This document shows, piece after piece, positions 9,328 to 16,182 of a stretch of DNA of 22,880 nucleotides (position 1 is its first letter; every line of letters begins with the position of its first letter). The stretch comes from a virus: the IMG/VR virus record IMGVR_UViG_3300027529_000024, positions 1 through 22,880 of that record. One strand, given 5' to 3'. Position numbers and translations under genes: made by a program. The notes under the pieces are model-generated. The model had not been told where the DNA came from and did no database searches. It saw only the letters and a list, made by a program, of their open reading frames with translations.

Positions 9328-9675
9328 ATGATTAAAATGGTAATGGGTGTTGCTCTTGCTTCGGTATTAGCATCACAGACGGTCAAGGCGGGAGATCGTG
9401 AATGGGCAACAGTTGGTAAGGTTTTGACAGGTGTAGCTGTTGTTCATGTTATTGATAAGATTGTAAATCCTGCTCCTCAAGTGGTTTACGTTCAACAGCC
9501 AGTAGTAGTTCAACAACCCGTGGTAGTCCAACAGCCAGTAGTGGTTCAACCAGCACCTGTTGTTTATGTGCAGCCTGCTCCAGTTGTTTATTATGCGTCA
9601 CCTAGTGTGGTAGTGTATCCAGGCTGTCCAACGCCGGTTTACAGATATCATCACCATCATCACTGGCACCGTTAA
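9328..9675 (+). CDS. Secreted Pro/Val/Gln repeat protein with His-rich end
   Basis: The N-terminus is a typical signal peptide: basic start, hydrophobic core, then ASQTVKA before GDREWATVGK, with likely cleavage after Ala21. The mature part begins GDREWATVGKVLTGVAVVHVIDK. It is followed by short repeats: three tandem 18-bp units encoding QPVVVQ-type hexads (9493-9546) and two 24-bp units encoding QPAPVVY-type octads (9547-9594). The end is YRYHHHHHWHR, which may bind metal. A good Shine-Dalgarno sequence (AAAGGA) lies 5 bases before the ATG. I recall proteins with a DREWATAGK-type start and PAPVVY repeats in Verrucomicrobiota and Planctomycetes, so this may be a gene taken from the host. Its role is unknown. 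It should act in the periplasm or at the cell surface. A strong terminator follows. Confidence 0.7.
   Translation: MIKMVMGVALASVLASQTVKAGDREWATVGKVLTGVAVVHVIDKIVNPAPQVVYVQQPVVVQQPVVVQQPVVVQPAPVVYVQPAPVVYYASPSVVVYPGCPTPVYRYHHHHHWHR
9493..9594 (+). repeat. In-frame tandem repeats (3 x 18 bp, 2 x 24 bp)
   Basis: Three 18-bp units (9493-9510, 9511-9528, 9529-9546) begin CAACAGCC or CAACAACC. Two diverged 24-bp units follow (9547-9570, 9571-9594). All keep the reading frame of the secreted protein. The first and third 18-bp units differ by one base, pointing to recent duplication. Confidence 0.8.
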
Positions 9676-9697: not shown

Positions 9698-9725
9698 AAC
9701 CGCTGACAAAATCAGCGGTTTTTTT
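9698..9725 (+). terminator. Strong intrinsic terminator
   Basis: A 9-bp perfect stem (AACCGCTGA 9698-9706 with TCAGCGGTT 9712-9720) with a 5-base loop is followed directly by TTTTT. It ends the 8.2-9.7 kb unit. A promoter begins only ten bases later. Confidence 0.9.
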
Positions 9726-9734
9726 ATTTGGGTG

Positions 9735-9762
9735 TTGACATACAAAAACTGTGTGGTAGTAT
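9735..9762 (+). promoter_or_regulatory. Promoter of the AAA+/VWA pair (extended -10)
   Basis: -35 TTGACA (9735-9740), 16-base spacer, -10 TAGTAT (9757-9762) preceded by TGG, an extended -10. The expected transcription start is near 9769. It shares the GTGTGGTA stretch with the promoter at 16198-16225. Confidence 0.75.
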
Positions 9763-9806
9763 AGGTGGTGTTGAGATCACCTATGAAAAACAAAAAAGGC
9801 AATGAA

Positions 9807-10763
9807 ATGAATTTGACCGTGACGGCGAATTTTGATATTAAGAAGTTCCTTGATACGTGCAAGGATTTGCGTCCATCTTCTCTGATTATGGATGATGTCA
9901 AGTGGAAGTATATGGTTCGGTCCACAATTCGTGGCAAGAACATTCTTCTTCTTGGACCCACTGGTTGCGGCAAGACTCTTGCTGCTCAAACTGTTGCCAA
10001 GGTTGTTGGTAAGGAAAACAAGTTTTTCTACTTCAATCTTGGAGCTACTCAAGATGCCCGTGCATCTCTTATTGGAAATACGCACTTCGACAAGTCTAGT
10101 GGAACCTTCTTCAAGGAGTCCAGCTTTGTTAAGGCTATTCGCACTCCCAACGCCATCATTCTTCTTGATGAAATTTCTCGTTCTCATCACGATGGTGTTA
10201 ATATTCTTATGACCGTTCTTGATGACCTTCAACGTTATCTTCGCCTTGATGAGAAGGAAGATAGTGAAATTGTGAAGGTTGCGGATGGGGTCACATTTAT
10301 TGCTACTGCAAACGTTGGTAATGAATACACCGCTACCCGTGTTATGGACCGTGCTTTGCTTTCACGTTTCCCAGTCAAGATCGAAATGACTCCTCTGGAT
10401 CGTGCCAGTGAGTTTGAACTGTTGAAGTCTCGATTTGATATCACTGATGTAGATAAGCTTGATATGCTTAATGCCGTCTGTGACATTGCGGATCACACCC
10501 GCAAGCAAGTCAAGTTGGAAGATAGCAAGATTACCAACTTTCTTCCTACTCGTTCAACCGTCGAGATTGCTGAACTTATTGTTGACGGATTTAATTTGCT
10601 TGAAATTGCCGAGACTACCATTTATCCTAATTTCAGTGACGATGGTGGCGTTGACAGTGAACGGACCTATGTGAAACAGCTTGTTCAAAAGTATATCAAG
10701 ACTGAATCCAAGACCAATCTGTTCAACGATCCTATCAAGGAAAACAATCAGGTTCCGTTCTAA
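9807..10763 (+). CDS. MoxR/CobS-like AAA+ ATPase
   Basis: A hexameric AAA+ ATPase of the MoxR/CobS type, which usually remodels proteins or drives metal insertion together with a VWA-domain partner. Here the next gene encodes such a partner. Numbering from the Met at 9807: Walker A GPTGCGKT (50-57), Walker B IILLDE (117-122), sensor 1 Asn169 (FIATANVGN) and an arginine-finger-like Arg187 (LLSRFPV). The promoter at 9735-9762 places the RNA start near 9769, so a GTG start at 9765 would not be transcribed. ATG 9783 is possible, but ATG 9807 has AAGG seven bases upstream and is preferred. CobS-like genes are common in T4-like cyanophages, where a cobalamin role was assumed from homology. I would not assume cobalt chelation here. 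Confidence 0.82.
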   Translation: MNLTVTANFDIKKFLDTCKDLRPSSLIMDDVKWKYMVRSTIRGKNILLLGPTGCGKTLAAQTVAKVVGKENKFFYFNLGATQDARASLIGNTHFDKSSGTFFKESSFVKAIRTPNAIILLDEISRSHHDGVNILMTVLDDLQRYLRLDEKEDSEIVKVADGVTFIATANVGNEYTATRVMDRALLSRFPVKIEMTPLDRASEFELLKSRFDITDVDKLDMLNAVCDIADHTRKQVKLEDSKITNFLPTRSTVEIAELIVDGFNLLEIAETTIYPNFSDDGGVDSERTYVKQLVQKYIKTESKTNLFNDPIKENNQVPF

Positions 10764-10794
10764 TAGTATAAACAACAATTAACCGACTTAATTT

Positions 10795-12894
10795 ATGGGA
10801 AAGCAACACAGCGACTTCTGGATGAAGGATTATGACATGGATTGGGATTTTACAGACGAATCCGATGATCTTGATCTTTCTAGTGCCCAGACTGAAACGA
10901 CTGCTCACCTAATTAGGTTGTCGGCCGCACGTAGGGCTATTTCTAACTACGTGTCAATTCTCACCAGTAGAAACATCCCCGTCATGTTTAACGATCAAAA
11001 CGTTAGTATGACTGACGGTAAGACCGTGTATATTGGTGCTGATGTTAATGAAAAGAATAACTTTGATGTAGCTGTCGGATTGGCGCTGCATGAAGGCAGC
11101 CACATCTGTTATTCTGATTTTGATTTGTATAAGACTTTGTGGCAGAAGGTTCCTAGAGAAATCTATGACTGTGCCATTAACCTGAACATTTCCAAGGAGG
11201 AAGTGGCAAACGTCTGTAAGACTTTGTTCAATATTATCGAAGACCGATACATTGACTACACTGTATACAAGAATGCGCCTGGTTACCGAGGTTACTATGA
11301 GGCGCTTTACGACAAGTATTTCAACACCAGTATCATTGATGATGGACTCAAGAGCAACCTATACAGGTCGCTTAACACCGAGTCATACATATATCGTATC
11401 ATCAATATCACCAATGAGTATACTGATCTGGATGCTTTGCCTGGTCTGTATGAAATTGCCAAGACTATCAATTTGACAAACATCAGTCGATTGGACACTG
11501 GTATGTCTCGTCTTGAGTGTGCGTTTGAAGTTGCTACAATTATATTCAAGAACATCAACGAAGCTAAGATGGTTCCTCAACCCAAGATGGATGTCAATGC
11601 TTCTGGTGGCGACGGACAAAATGAGGATTCCAAGGGTCAAGAAACCAAGGTTGAATCTGGTGAAAAGTCTGACAAGGTTAATCCTAAAGATGAAGAAGAT
11701 GCTCTTGGTGGCGATACTACCTCTGTAGAGACAACGGATGCACCTACTGCCAATACTAATGTTGGCGATGATGATAGTGTGTCTCAAACCAAGAAGAGCA
11801 AGATTGCAAGGGCTTTTGAAAAGCAGAAGGAATTTGTTTCTGGTAATCTTAAGAAGAAGAAGGTTTCCAAGAAGGAGAATCAGGTTCTTAATATATTGGA
11901 ACGTAGTCAAATTGATCTGATCGACGTTGGTAACGAATATGTTATTAGTCAGAACAACGTTGGCGCTATTGAATGTATTTTGGTCAAGAACCTTACTAAG
12001 GAACTGGCTATGTCTGAAGAGTTTCCGCTTGGACCTGTTAGGTCTTGGTATGGATACAAGGATGTGTCTTCTATTCCTCAAGTTATTGAGCTACAGAAAA
12101 TCATTGATCGTGGTATTAGTCTTGGAACCAAGATTGGTAAGCGTCTTCAATTTCGTAACGAAGTAAATGTTGAAAAGTTTACTCGCAGGGAAACTGGACG
12201 GCTTGACAAGCGTATTATCCATGAGTTGGGTTTTGATGCAGAAAACATCTTTTACACTACTGCTACTTCTAAATACAAGAAGATGAACTTTCATATCAGT
12301 GTTGATGCTAGTGCTAGTATGAGAGGAAGCAAGTGGAATAAGACTATGCTTCTTTGCACTTCAATTGCTAAGGCTGCCAGTATGTTGGAAAACATTCGTG
12401 TCACCATTAGTTTTAGGTCTACTATGGATAAGATGCCGTATGTTGTGATGGCATATGATTCCAATAAGGATAAGATTGTCAAGATCAAGAATTTGTTTGC
12501 TTTTATTCATCCAGACGGGTTGACTCCCGAAGGATTGAGTTTTGAGGCAATCATGAAAGAAATGCCTGAAGGTGGGGCTGATATGGACAGCTACTTCATC
12601 AATATTTCTGATGGCGAACCATGTTTTTCTTTCAACGGCGAAAGCGTTCAGATACCCGTTGCATATAGTGGTGCTGATGCTGCTTCTCATACCAGAAAAC
12701 AAGTTAACAAGATTCGTAGCATGAACTATCGGGTTATTTCTTACTTCATTAGTGAAAATAACACTGTTCCGCCACAATCTGCTAATATGTTCAAAACCAT
12801 GTATGGCAAGGATGGTGTGTTTATTAATGTTGAAAATATCAATCAGATTGTGAACACGCTCAATAAAAAGATGTTGGAAAGTGTTGACGTATAA
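10795..12894 (+). CDS. Metallopeptidase-like plus VWA-domain protein, partner of the AAA+ ATPase
   Basis: A 699-residue protein with two functional sites. N-terminal: HEGSH (His99, Glu100, His103) is an HExxH zinc-protease signature within LALHEGSHICYSDF. Glu149 in NIIEDRYID is well placed as a third ligand. The middle (about 265-360) is acidic and low-complexity (Asp, Glu, Lys, Thr), probably a flexible linker. C-terminal: a VWA domain with an intact MIDAS: Asp504, Ser506, Ser508 (VDASAS), Thr577 (DGLTPEG) and Asp606 (ISDGEP). Metallopeptidase-like plus VWA proteins paired with MoxR ATPases are known in bacteria (DUF2201 type), and CobT is a related VWA partner of CobS. Here the gene lies 31 bases after the ATPase gene, so they probably form one complex. 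The substrate is unknown, and I infer protein remodelling or cleavage rather than cobalamin synthesis. There is no Shine-Dalgarno sequence. Confidence 0.8.
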   Translation: MGKQHSDFWMKDYDMDWDFTDESDDLDLSSAQTETTAHLIRLSAARRAISNYVSILTSRNIPVMFNDQNVSMTDGKTVYIGADVNEKNNFDVAVGLALHEGSHICYSDFDLYKTLWQKVPREIYDCAINLNISKEEVANVCKTLFNIIEDRYIDYTVYKNAPGYRGYYEALYDKYFNTSIIDDGLKSNLYRSLNTESYIYRIINITNEYTDLDALPGLYEIAKTINLTNISRLDTGMSRLECAFEVATIIFKNINEAKMVPQPKMDVNASGGDGQNEDSKGQETKVESGEKSDKVNPKDEEDALGGDTTSVETTDAPTANTNVGDDDSVSQTKKSKIARAFEKQKEFVSGNLKKKKVSKKENQVLNILERSQIDLIDVGNEYVISQNNVGAIECILVKNLTKELAMSEEFPLGPVRSWYGYKDVSSIPQVIELQKIIDRGISLGTKIGKRLQFRNEVNVEKFTRRETGRLDKRIIHELGFDAENIFYTTATSKYKKMNFHISVDASASMRGSKWNKTMLLCTSIAKAASMLENIRVTISFRSTMDKMPYVVMAYDSNKDKIVKIKNLFAFIHPDGLTPEGLSFEAIMKEMPEGGADMDSYFINISDGEPCFSFNGESVQIPVAYSGADAASHTRKQVNKIRSMNYRVISYFISENNTVPPQSANMFKTMYGKDGVFINVENINQIVNTLNKKMLESVDV

Positions 12895-12912
12895 CAACTC
12901 TTCTGATATAAT
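12884..12912 (+). promoter_or_regulatory. Strong promoter upstream of the 12970 gene
   Basis: -35 TTGACG (12884-12889), 17-base spacer, consensus -10 TATAAT (12907-12912) preceded by TGA (extended -10). The -35 lies inside the last codons of the upstream gene. The expected RNA start is near 12919, giving a leader of about 51 bases. Confidence 0.85.
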
Positions 12913-12969: not shown

Positions 12970-13341
12970 ATGAAAAAGACTGATCGTAAGAACAAGACAA
13001 ACCTCACCGTTAATTGGCCGAAGAATATCTTCACAATTGAGGAACTGAACCAGAAGAATCCCGAGTTTGTCAACATCACGTTGCGAGTTCGACTCAAGAA
13101 GGCGATCTCTGATAACATGGTTTCGGAGGTTGGATATCTTCACAATGGTAAGGGTCGTCCTCGTTTGGTGTTAGCATGTTCACCTATTACTCAAGAACAT
13201 ATTGCAGAAGCAAAGAGTAAGGGTGTTGTGCTGAAGGATGGATTGAGTGTCAATGTTTTGACTGTCAATGCTTCTAAGGAAGAGTCTGTTGTCACGATTG
13301 CTGAGTCAACCAATTCACAGAACGTCACTATGTCTGTGTAA
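12970..13341 (+). CDS. Hypothetical small basic protein, possible DNA-binding
   Basis: I do not recognise the family with confidence. The 123 residues begin with a basic segment (MKKTDRKNKTN), then NWPKNIFTIEELNQKNPEFVNITLRVRLKKAI, which looks like a helix-loop-helix fold, then a basic loop GYLHNGKGRPRLVLA whose GRPR resembles an AT-hook or winged-helix wing. The C-terminal third is Ser/Thr/Val-rich. The basic loop suggests nucleic-acid binding, but this is inference. It has its own strong promoter (12884-12912), a good Shine-Dalgarno sequence (GAAAGGA, six bases before the ATG) and its own terminator (13367-13404). It is thus a single-gene unit probably made early and at a high level, as expected for a host-takeover or regulatory protein. 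Confidence 0.7.
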   Translation: MKKTDRKNKTNLTVNWPKNIFTIEELNQKNPEFVNITLRVRLKKAISDNMVSEVGYLHNGKGRPRLVLACSPITQEHIAEAKSKGVVLKDGLSVNVLTVNASKEESVVTIAESTNSQNVTMSV

Positions 13342-13608: not shown

Positions 13609-14790
13609 ATGGACGTATTACAAGAATATTTTAGTGGAATCGAACAATTCGACTATGCAACAAACAAGAAGAAACTAATTGACAATCTCAATTATCTCAA
13701 GTCGATGTCTGTAGAAGAACAAACCTTCTACAAGAAGTGGGTCGAACTGCAAGAATTAAATCATTATTCTGAACGAGCAGCAATTGCCAGAAACAAGATT
13801 TGGACACCCACAGATCTAAATGATGAAGCAGCCACTATTAAGGAAATTGAAAGTATTAATCCAACAGTAGTTCATGTAGATAATACTGCACTGGATACTG
13901 AATGGGTAATGCTTAGAACGTTTGTTCATACAATGGCATATGATCAAACCCCAGGCAGATTCATCAAATTGTTGATTAGCGATGGCAACAAAGATAATCC
14001 TAGATATCTTGGTGTTATTAGTATGTCCAGTGATGTTATTACAATTACTGATCGTGATAACTATATTGGTTGGACTCCCGATGCAAAACTAAAATGTAAG
14101 AAGCTGAACAACAGTGCAATTGGTAGTTGTATTATGTCTACCCAACCATTTGGATACAACTTCTTGGGTGGAAAGTTGATTGCGGGGTTAGTAACTGGTG
14201 AAACTGTAAGAAATCTTTGGAAGCAGTTGTATGGGCAAACTCTGGCTGGTATTACCACAACCAGTCTATATGGCAGTTACAGTATGTATAATAGTCTTAA
14301 ATGGTGGCACAAGTGTGGAACTAGTAGTGGTAAAATGACTATCAAGCCAGACGATGACATTTACAAGGTATGGCATGACTGGATTAAAGAGAACAAGGCT
14401 GACAAATACAAACAGGCAATGACCCAAAAAGAAGGTGTTAGTGGACCTGTAACTGGTGCCAAGAATCGTGTGTTGAGCATGATTTTCTCTCAGTGTGAAA
14501 TTAAAGCAGCTGAATATGTCCATGGATATGAACGTGGAACATACTATGCTTGTCCCTATCGTAATAGTAGGGATTTCCTAAAAGGAGAAATTGAAGAAAG
14601 CAAGCTAGAGTTGAATCCAATTTACAATGAAAAATACATTATTGATTGGTGGAGACAAAAGGCGATTGCGAGATACAAGACTCTCAAAAGTGAGAATCGA
14701 TTGAAGGGAGACGTTCTGTATTACAATAAAATGATCGGAATGTCTTATGAAGACTCAAAAAAACTTTACTTTGGTGAAGTAGGAAGATGA
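13609..14790 (+). CDS. DUF4338 (DruA-type) domain protein
   Basis: A 393-residue protein whose centre (about residues 110-230) matches the DUF4338 pattern as I remember it: RFIKLLISDGNKDNPRYLGV, then ISMSSDVITITDRDNYIGW, a NNSAIGSCIMSTQPFGYNFLGG stretch (KLNNSAIGS, GYNFLGGKL), and TTTSLYGSYSMYNSLKWW. DUF4338 occurs in DruA of the Druantia anti-phage system and in standalone phage proteins. The biochemical activity is not established. The N-terminal 100 residues are helical and charged. The C-terminal part has YERGTYYACPYRNSRDFLKG and helical ends. No Shine-Dalgarno sequence precedes the ATG. The promoter at 13570-13597 would give a leader of about five bases, so translation may be leaderless. 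I am fairly sure of the family and unsure of the function. Confidence 0.72.
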   Translation: MDVLQEYFSGIEQFDYATNKKKLIDNLNYLKSMSVEEQTFYKKWVELQELNHYSERAAIARNKIWTPTDLNDEAATIKEIESINPTVVHVDNTALDTEWVMLRTFVHTMAYDQTPGRFIKLLISDGNKDNPRYLGVISMSSDVITITDRDNYIGWTPDAKLKCKKLNNSAIGSCIMSTQPFGYNFLGGKLIAGLVTGETVRNLWKQLYGQTLAGITTTSLYGSYSMYNSLKWWHKCGTSSGKMTIKPDDDIYKVWHDWIKENKADKYKQAMTQKEGVSGPVTGAKNRVLSMIFSQCEIKAAEYVHGYERGTYYACPYRNSRDFLKGEIEESKLELNPIYNEKYIIDWWRQKAIARYKTLKSENRLKGDVLYYNKMIGMSYEDSKKLYFGEVGR

Positions 14791-15270: not shown

Positions 15271-16182
15271 ATGAGAAAAAGTTTGTGTTGTATATCCCTT
15301 AAGCTCCAAGAACGTGGTTTCAAAGCAAATACCATGACAAAATCACGGTTTCTTGCACTTGAACGTGTCGATTCACTTGAAATTCTTAGCAAACGTGTAT
15401 TAAACAACGTTAATGTTACAAAAGAAACTATCAAGTATTGTATCGATAAAGGATGGAATTATCGTGTAAGTAGCGATCTATTTCCTCTAAAAACTCTACC
15501 CGAAGCAGATCTATCATTCGATTGTCTTCCAGATAAAGACAAGATTGATCAAGCATTTCGTGAATGTGCTATTCTTATCAAAAATAGTAATATTCGTTGT
15601 AGCACTCATCCCGACCAGTTTGTGGTTCCTGCCAGTGCAAATGAGTCTGTGGCACAGAAATCTATTGTGGAATTGACCTATCATGCTGATATTATGGATC
15701 GGTTGGGTCTTCCTCGTTCGTATAATGCGCCTATAAACATCCACATGAACTGTTATAAGGGAGACCTCAAAGCTACGGCAAAACGGTTTATAGAGGTGTT
15801 TAGACAGCTTCCTGAGGGTGTTAAGAGTCGTTTGGTATTGGAGAACGAAGACAAACCCAATAGTTGGAATGTTGACCAGCTGTATAACTACATTTATCAA
15901 GAAACTGGTATTCCGATTACATATGACAATTTACATTTTCAGTGTAATACTGGCGGTCTGACTGCTAAAAATGCAGTTACACTGGCAAAATCTACATGGG
16001 GTAGTTATGTTCCGCTGTTTCATTTCAGCGATAACGATGTCAAAAATCGTAATCCTCGTGCGCATGCGGACTATCCTACCAAGTTTCCCGAAGAGTTCGT
16101 TGGCGAAGACATTGACTTGGACTTTGAGTTCAAAGCAAAGGACTATGCGATTGAATACTTCGAAAGCAACATCCAAAAATAA
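15271..16182 (+). CDS. uvsE: UV-damage endonuclease, UvsE/UVDE family
   Basis: A TIM-barrel, metal-dependent endonuclease that nicks DNA 5' to UV photoproducts and starts alternative excision repair. Metal-ligand-type residues are seen in family order: His113 (STHPDQF), His158 (NIHMNCY), Glu191 (LENEDKP), Asp219 and His222 (YDNLHF), His251 (FHFSD), His265 (AHADYP) and Glu286 (DFEFKAKD). I could not place the first family histidine. Length 303 is normal for the single-domain form. The N-terminal MRKSLCCISLKLQ matches the first barrel strand, so the ATG at 15271 is the true start, although the promoter places the RNA start almost on it (likely leaderless). It ends before the 16198 promoter. It would protect the phage from sunlight damage, as expected for a surface-water phage. 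Confidence 0.9.
   Translation: MRKSLCCISLKLQERGFKANTMTKSRFLALERVDSLEILSKRVLNNVNVTKETIKYCIDKGWNYRVSSDLFPLKTLPEADLSFDCLPDKDKIDQAFRECAILIKNSNIRCSTHPDQFVVPASANESVAQKSIVELTYHADIMDRLGLPRSYNAPINIHMNCYKGDLKATAKRFIEVFRQLPEGVKSRLVLENEDKPNSWNVDQLYNYIYQETGIPITYDNLHFQCNTGGLTAKNAVTLAKSTWGSYVPLFHFSDNDVKNRNPRAHADYPTKFPEEFVGEDIDLDFEFKAKDYAIEYFESNIQK

Follow-up and report, generated by a model that had tools for sequence, protein, structure and literature searches.

In the virus record IMGVR_UViG_3300027529_000024, a 22,880-base fragment of a T4-like phage that was analyzed whole and is referred to here as the window, a MoxR/CobS-type AAA+ ATPase is encoded beside a partner protein that combines an HExxH-bearing N-terminal domain with a VWA domain. 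The evidence supports that the two genes form a co-transcribed pair in an early-type operon. We consider it probable, at roughly 60%, that the pair constitutes an ATP-driven machine for protein remodelling or proteolysis that acts early in infection, a reading drawn from sequence conservation, structural models, and analogy with related systems. Within the window, profile matches place genes for gp32, UvsX, RNase H, the gp41 helicase, NrdA, and NrdB upstream of the pair. Judged by gp41, the closest named relatives of the phage are an uncultured 484-kb phage and Microcystis phage Mel-JY01 (41–45% identity); a megablast search of the whole window against phages gave no match.

The ATPase (326 aa; 9783–10763, + strand) matches Pfam AAA_5 (1.2e-17) and phrog_249 (1.5e-23), the latter labelled ‘porphyrin biosynthesis’ (CobS). 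Its Walker A (9954–9977), Walker B DE, ATAN, DRALLSR, and sensor-2 TR motifs are invariant in the alignment of relatives. This combination of an AAA_5/CobS profile with Walker A and B motifs, sensor 1, and arginine finger identifies a complete MoxR/CobS-type ATPase, as the initial annotation had proposed from the DNA alone. That annotation also located the gene correctly on the + strand, but its start at 9807 (318 aa) is an internal ATG. The ATG at 9783 is the more likely start, since the ATPases of relatives begin MKN..., and a GTG at 9765 is unlikely because of the predicted promoter at 9735–9762. In PADLOC, the ATPase gave only generic AAA matches and the partner matched no defence model.

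An intrinsic terminator-like hairpin with a T run (9698–9725, + strand; read directly as AACCGCTGACAAAATCAGCGGTTTTTTTA) divides the pair from the upstream gene at 9328–9675, and the same two elements precede the promoter at the corresponding place in most of the 13 relatives checked. The promoter itself, TTGACA-16-TAGTAT (9735–9762, + strand), is of the sigma-70/early type, and TTGAC[A/T]-16-TANNNT lies just 5' of the ATPase start in 13/13 relatives checked. The region contains no more promoter-like sites than chance would give, so it is this conservation that carries the case; together with the preceding hairpin, it bears out the earlier suggestion that the ATPase is under its own promoter. 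Sigma-70-type promoters serve early genes in T4-like phages. In every relative at 45% identity or above, the partner gene adjoins the ATPase gene, separated from it by -41 to +51 nt. More distant marine relatives have the two genes the other way round, as cyanophages do, and their ATPase lies ~0.2–0.7 kb downstream of the partner; in Mel-JY01 the genes are separated by 13 kb, and the ATPase has an extra N-terminal part. The upstream gene at 9328–9675, kept in that position in many relatives, encodes a small protein with a signal-like start, VVVQQP repeats, and a His-rich end (HHHHHWHR), without a family match. At the other end, a strong promoter-like sequence (TTGACG-17-TATAAT; 12884–12912) overlaps the end of the partner gene and likely serves the gene at 12970–13341.

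The partner (699 aa; 10795–12894, + strand) was delimited from its reading frame, alignment, and structural model, and has no Pfam match. It comprises an N-terminal zincin-like domain (residues 36–262; 10900–11580), delimited by AlphaFold2 and by a profile match to the N-domain of the cyanophage ‘peptidase’, a disordered acidic linker (residues 259–319; 11569–11751; pLDDT < 50), and a VWA domain (12280–12891). The N-domain contains HEGSH (residues 99–103; 11089–11103) and, within an N-x-x-E-D-x-x-I-D motif, Glu149-Asp150 (11239–11244), the proposed third metal ligand and its neighbor. A possible VWA ‘finger’ segment with the motif GxLDxR (residues 458–480; 12166–12234), whose role is suggested by NorQD, has G468 and D471 invariant in the partner alignment and aligns with EGxLDxxxL of CobT. 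The MIDAS is formed by D504-x-S506-x-S508 (12304–12318), T577 (12523–12525), and D606 (12610–12612); all of these features are on the + strand.

Both metal sites are strictly conserved. We compared 77 non-redundant relatives, the most divergent at about 20% identity, that had been gathered by patterns without HExxH, by tblastn to named phages, and by profile-derived patterns containing HExxH. H99, E100, H103, N146, E149, D150, D504, S506, S508, and D606 are each present in 77/77, and T577 in 75/77, so that the residues singled out in the initial annotation (HEGSH, Glu149, and the five MIDAS positions) all stand as described. Relatives L001–L025, gathered without HExxH in the search, all keep this motif too. 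By composition, 0.006 HExxH motifs would be expected in the partner; conservation, rather than this expectation, is the real test of the motif. Loss of HExxH with retention of the MIDAS, the pattern that would have spoken against a functional site, was found in 0/77 relatives. Beyond the family, HExxH is missing from Thermus phage P23-45 gp50 and from true CobT, both of which retain the VWA domain; gp50 is a VWA protein adjoining a MoxR-like ATPase (L117:5702–7393). Halovirus HHTV-2 encodes the partner in two pieces (L115:98–1165, 1385–2671), gp2, with HEVQH and EDNHID, and gp3, with the VWA domain; the zincin half is there a protein in its own right. Family members are also carried by two contigs (L107 and L108) filed as Pelagibacter and Flavobacteriaceae MAGs, which are possibly phage contigs binned with their hosts.

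We used AlphaFold2 to model the partner with 53 relatives. The whole protein reached a pLDDT of 78.6 and the N-domain alone a pLDDT of 91.9 (pTM 0.88). In the model, HEGSH lies in a helix (residues 87–106) that follows short strands forming a small sheet, and E149 lies in a later helix (residues 134–160). The expectation that HEGSH would occupy a helix thus held, and confidently; an active-site helix with HExxH, followed by a later helix with a conserved Glu, is the order expected of a gluzincin. With the whole model as query, the best Foldseek match in the PDB was the VWA domain of NorD in NorQD (9qh6; E 4.7e-8), with the Rea1 MIDAS also matched, and this fold combined with DxSxS-T-D marks a VWA domain with a MIDAS. 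Searches of BFVD returned full-length matches to viral proteins named CobT or VWFA, as well as ORF892 of Acidianus two-tailed virus (ATV; 3.8e-5). For the N-domain, the fold search against the PDB gave nothing significant: the only matches with appreciable probability were to the minimal metallopeptidase selecase (4qhi; probability 0.51–0.66, E > 2), the best plausible one at E 2.4 and probability 0.66. A PDB sequence search with the partner alone returned nothing, and Pfam searches of 53 N-domains gave weak, scattered matches only. The N-domain is therefore assigned as a probable zincin on its motif, conservation, and modelled helix placement rather than on a fold match.

The initial annotation knew of no phage counterpart with a proven function, but the pairing has precedents. 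Iyer et al. (2021) described a MoxR gene and a metallopeptidase-vWA gene (ASV44729.1 and ASV44728.2, respectively) in subgroup 2.2 jumbo phages and proposed virion assembly with processing as their role (PMC7824862). Going by this published description, the window pair has the same two-gene architecture in T4-related phages, i.e., a MoxR gene beside a vWA gene with an N-terminal metallopeptidase domain, whereas its context is early and replicative. The pair also corresponds to the ‘peptidase’ (T4-GC 146) and ‘cobS’ (T4-GC 150) of T4-like cyanophages, a layout present in 463 phage records. The cyanophage pair shares HExxH, N-x-x-E-D-x-R-I-E, an acidic linker, a DxSxS MIDAS, a nearby MoxR partner, and a replication-gene setting, with ED-x-RI(E/D) common to ‘peptidase’ and window partner. 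It differs in that the peptidase comes first, and the partners are too distant for tblastn and are linked by profile only: the two N-domains align at 78% probability (E 1.8e-5), an alignment that superposes the two HExxH motifs and sets ED-x-x-I against ED-x-R-I. Literature searches returned nothing on when the cyanophage pair is expressed. In an archaeal virus, the p618-p892 pair of ATV has been studied biochemically (PMC4124505); there, a viral MoxR ATPase is stimulated by its VWA partner, but the pair has no peptidase domain and is implicated in extracellular tail growth. The NorQ-NorD system (PDB 9qh6 and others) likewise joins a MoxR ATPase to a VWA partner, and its finger-in-pore docking and twisting have been described (PMC13036017). 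Both the finger and the C-terminus of NorD dock on the ring; NorD serves iron insertion, however, and its structural match to the window partner stops short of the HExxH domain.

For the window pair we infer zinc binding, proteolysis, and ring docking. The ATPase, like others of its family, would form a hexameric ring. By analogy with NorQD, the partner VWA domain would dock on this ring with its finger segment in the pore, and the MIDAS metal would grip a target that ATP turnover would twist or pull. The N-domain is probably a gluzincin-like metalloprotease, in which His99, His103, and most likely Glu149 would bind the metal and Glu100 would serve as the catalytic base; tethered by the acidic linker, it would cut or process the gripped or remodelled target. 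Counting against this reading, P23-45 gp50 and bacterial CobT lack HExxH yet pair with a MoxR-type ATPase, so such rings can work without a protease. The N-domain's failure to match a solved zincin significantly and the separated genes and extended ATPase of Mel-JY01 weigh on the same side.

The gene neighborhood suggests when this target would be met. In the window family, the order is gp41, nrdAB, the pair, and genes for DruA-like, UV-endonuclease-like, and clamp-loader-like proteins and a dNMP kinase. Cyanophages have gp47, gp46, peptidase, cobS, and gp45, with gp44 next in S-PM2 and Syn19, and Ochrobactrum OC has gp47, gp46, deformylase, CobT, CobS, gp45, gp44, and RegA. Elsewhere, the pair is near DNA polymerase (Bacteroides phage BS162P1 and locus L094), DnaB (Thermus P23-45), dNMP kinase, ThyX, and MazG (Cantare), or rIIA/rIIB (locus L074). 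The named neighbors in several lineages are thus replication, nucleotide, or early genes, and no head, tail, or packaging gene was found among them in the lineages examined, where many neighbors are unnamed. Three further genes in these neighborhoods deserve mention. The DruA-like (DUF4338) gene (13609–14790; Pfam DruA 5.8e-20, PADLOC DruA 1.5e-15) adjoins the pair in most close relatives; here a Druantia-type protein is a stable part of the phage gene set. The endonuclease gene (15271–16182; phrog_8420, 1.2e-47), kept in relatives, encodes a protein that resembles UvsE-type UV damage endonucleases by sequence. In LR756508, the phage of 484 kb, the gene directly upstream of the MoxR-VWA pair encodes an ATP-dependent protease (L022:8265–10238; phrog_4871, E 6e-234).

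The published proposal for this architecture (PMC7824862) would instead make the pair a chaperone-protease that assembles and proteolytically matures head or tail proteins, and the analogy with ATV p618/p892 in tail formation (PMC4124505), together with the BFVD match to ATV ORF892, is consistent with it. The promoter, however, is an early-type sigma-70 element, not a T4-type late TATAAATA. The neighbors also point less to a virion protein than to a target encountered early, at the stage of take-over or DNA replication; this context is suggestive only and not decisive, because many of the neighbors lack names and early genes can also encode assembly chaperones in T4. We regard a role in virion assembly as possible, with the odds well against it.

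Two other functions were weighed, both more doubtful. Wss1 is a minigluzincin that works with Cdc48 (PMC4559962), and Wss1/Spartan with Cdc48 thus offer an HExxH minigluzincin and an AAA+ ATPase acting in protein removal. By this analogy only, as Wss1 and Spartan are separate, eukaryotic proteins without a VWA domain, the pair might conceivably be a replication-coupled machine that clears protein roadblocks or DNA-protein adducts; were this so, a phage family that is widespread and currently listed under B12 genes would do this work. It is somewhat less probable still that the HExxH/E149 site, instead of cutting, serves to carry or deliver a metal, with the pair as a metal-insertion chaperone and the di-iron NrdB as a possible client. 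The best structural match is indeed the iron-insertion partner NorD, and nrdB is near the pair, a few genes upstream, in the window and close relatives. In cyanophages, however, the pair is flanked by gp46 and gp45 rather than placed next to nrdB, and there is no obvious reason why metal delivery alone would require the strict conservation of Glu100, the presumed catalytic residue.

The remaining reading concerns cobalamin. One published view is that cobST occurs widely among tailed viruses, that the ‘peptidase’ is a mislabelled cobT, and that it raises B12 (PMC8651126); a B12 role has also been proposed for cyanophages (PMC2984593), whose cobS is counted as a B12 gene at ~1 copy per myo-cyanophage genome (PMC9983427). 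The PHROG labels of the window pair point to cobalamin genes, and the pair shares with CobS-CobT a CobS-type ATPase and a CobT-like VWA domain with an acidic linker. The VWA half aligns to the CobT VWA domain with 94% probability in hhalign, as expected of a CobT-type VWA, and hmmsearch matched PDB CobT 9uka (2.4e-5), with the main stretch over the VWA region. In contrast, the CobT-defining N-terminal domain PF06213 was not found by profile search in the window, and hhalign of the N-domain to CobT gave no alignment (0.4%). Membership of CobT was rejected on the missing PF06213, and that of DUF2201_N/DUF2201 (PF13203), which the initial annotation had put forward for checking, on the lack of a profile match and an N-domain hhalign probability of 0.7%. 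No CobN was seen in the 22,880-base fragment.

We also compared the partner with 20 bona fide CobT proteins. These came from a PF06213 search of the class sampled around G004; automatic gene picks in a wrong frame were left out, and the set was restricted to proteins with a DNSGS MIDAS. At the matching site, HExxH was present in 0/20; these proteins mostly have RHHDxxxH followed by xExARxE, and one carries an unrelated HEPAH elsewhere. CobT may be a relative with a broken site, although the profile match is too weak for proof. The phage moreover encodes class Ia NrdA/NrdB (Pfam, window), and class Ia ribonucleotide reductase needs no B12. Because the N-terminal half is not CobT-like, CobT lacks HExxH, and the reductase is of class Ia, B12 synthesis by the pair is unlikely, in agreement with the doubt first raised over reading phage CobS-like genes as cobalamin genes, and a cobaltochelatase in which the pair, together with host CobN, would insert cobalt and so increase B12 appears the most improbable function of all.

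The architecture is already described and the pairing is widespread; what is new here is the absence of HExxH from CobT (0/20), the class Ia reductase, the promoter kept in 13/13 relatives, and the early or replicative neighbors. The CobT test and the early or replicative setting bear on two rival published readings, i.e., a B12 gene and a virion chaperone-protease, and the sequence test speaks against the first. The usual ‘B12 gene’ label for such phage genes is probably wrong, because they conserve active-site residues that are absent from true B12 enzymes. If the partner of cyanophage cobS is a metalloprotease with an intact active site, which CobT is not, then many inventories of viral metabolism would be miscounting a remodelling gene as one of vitamin metabolism.
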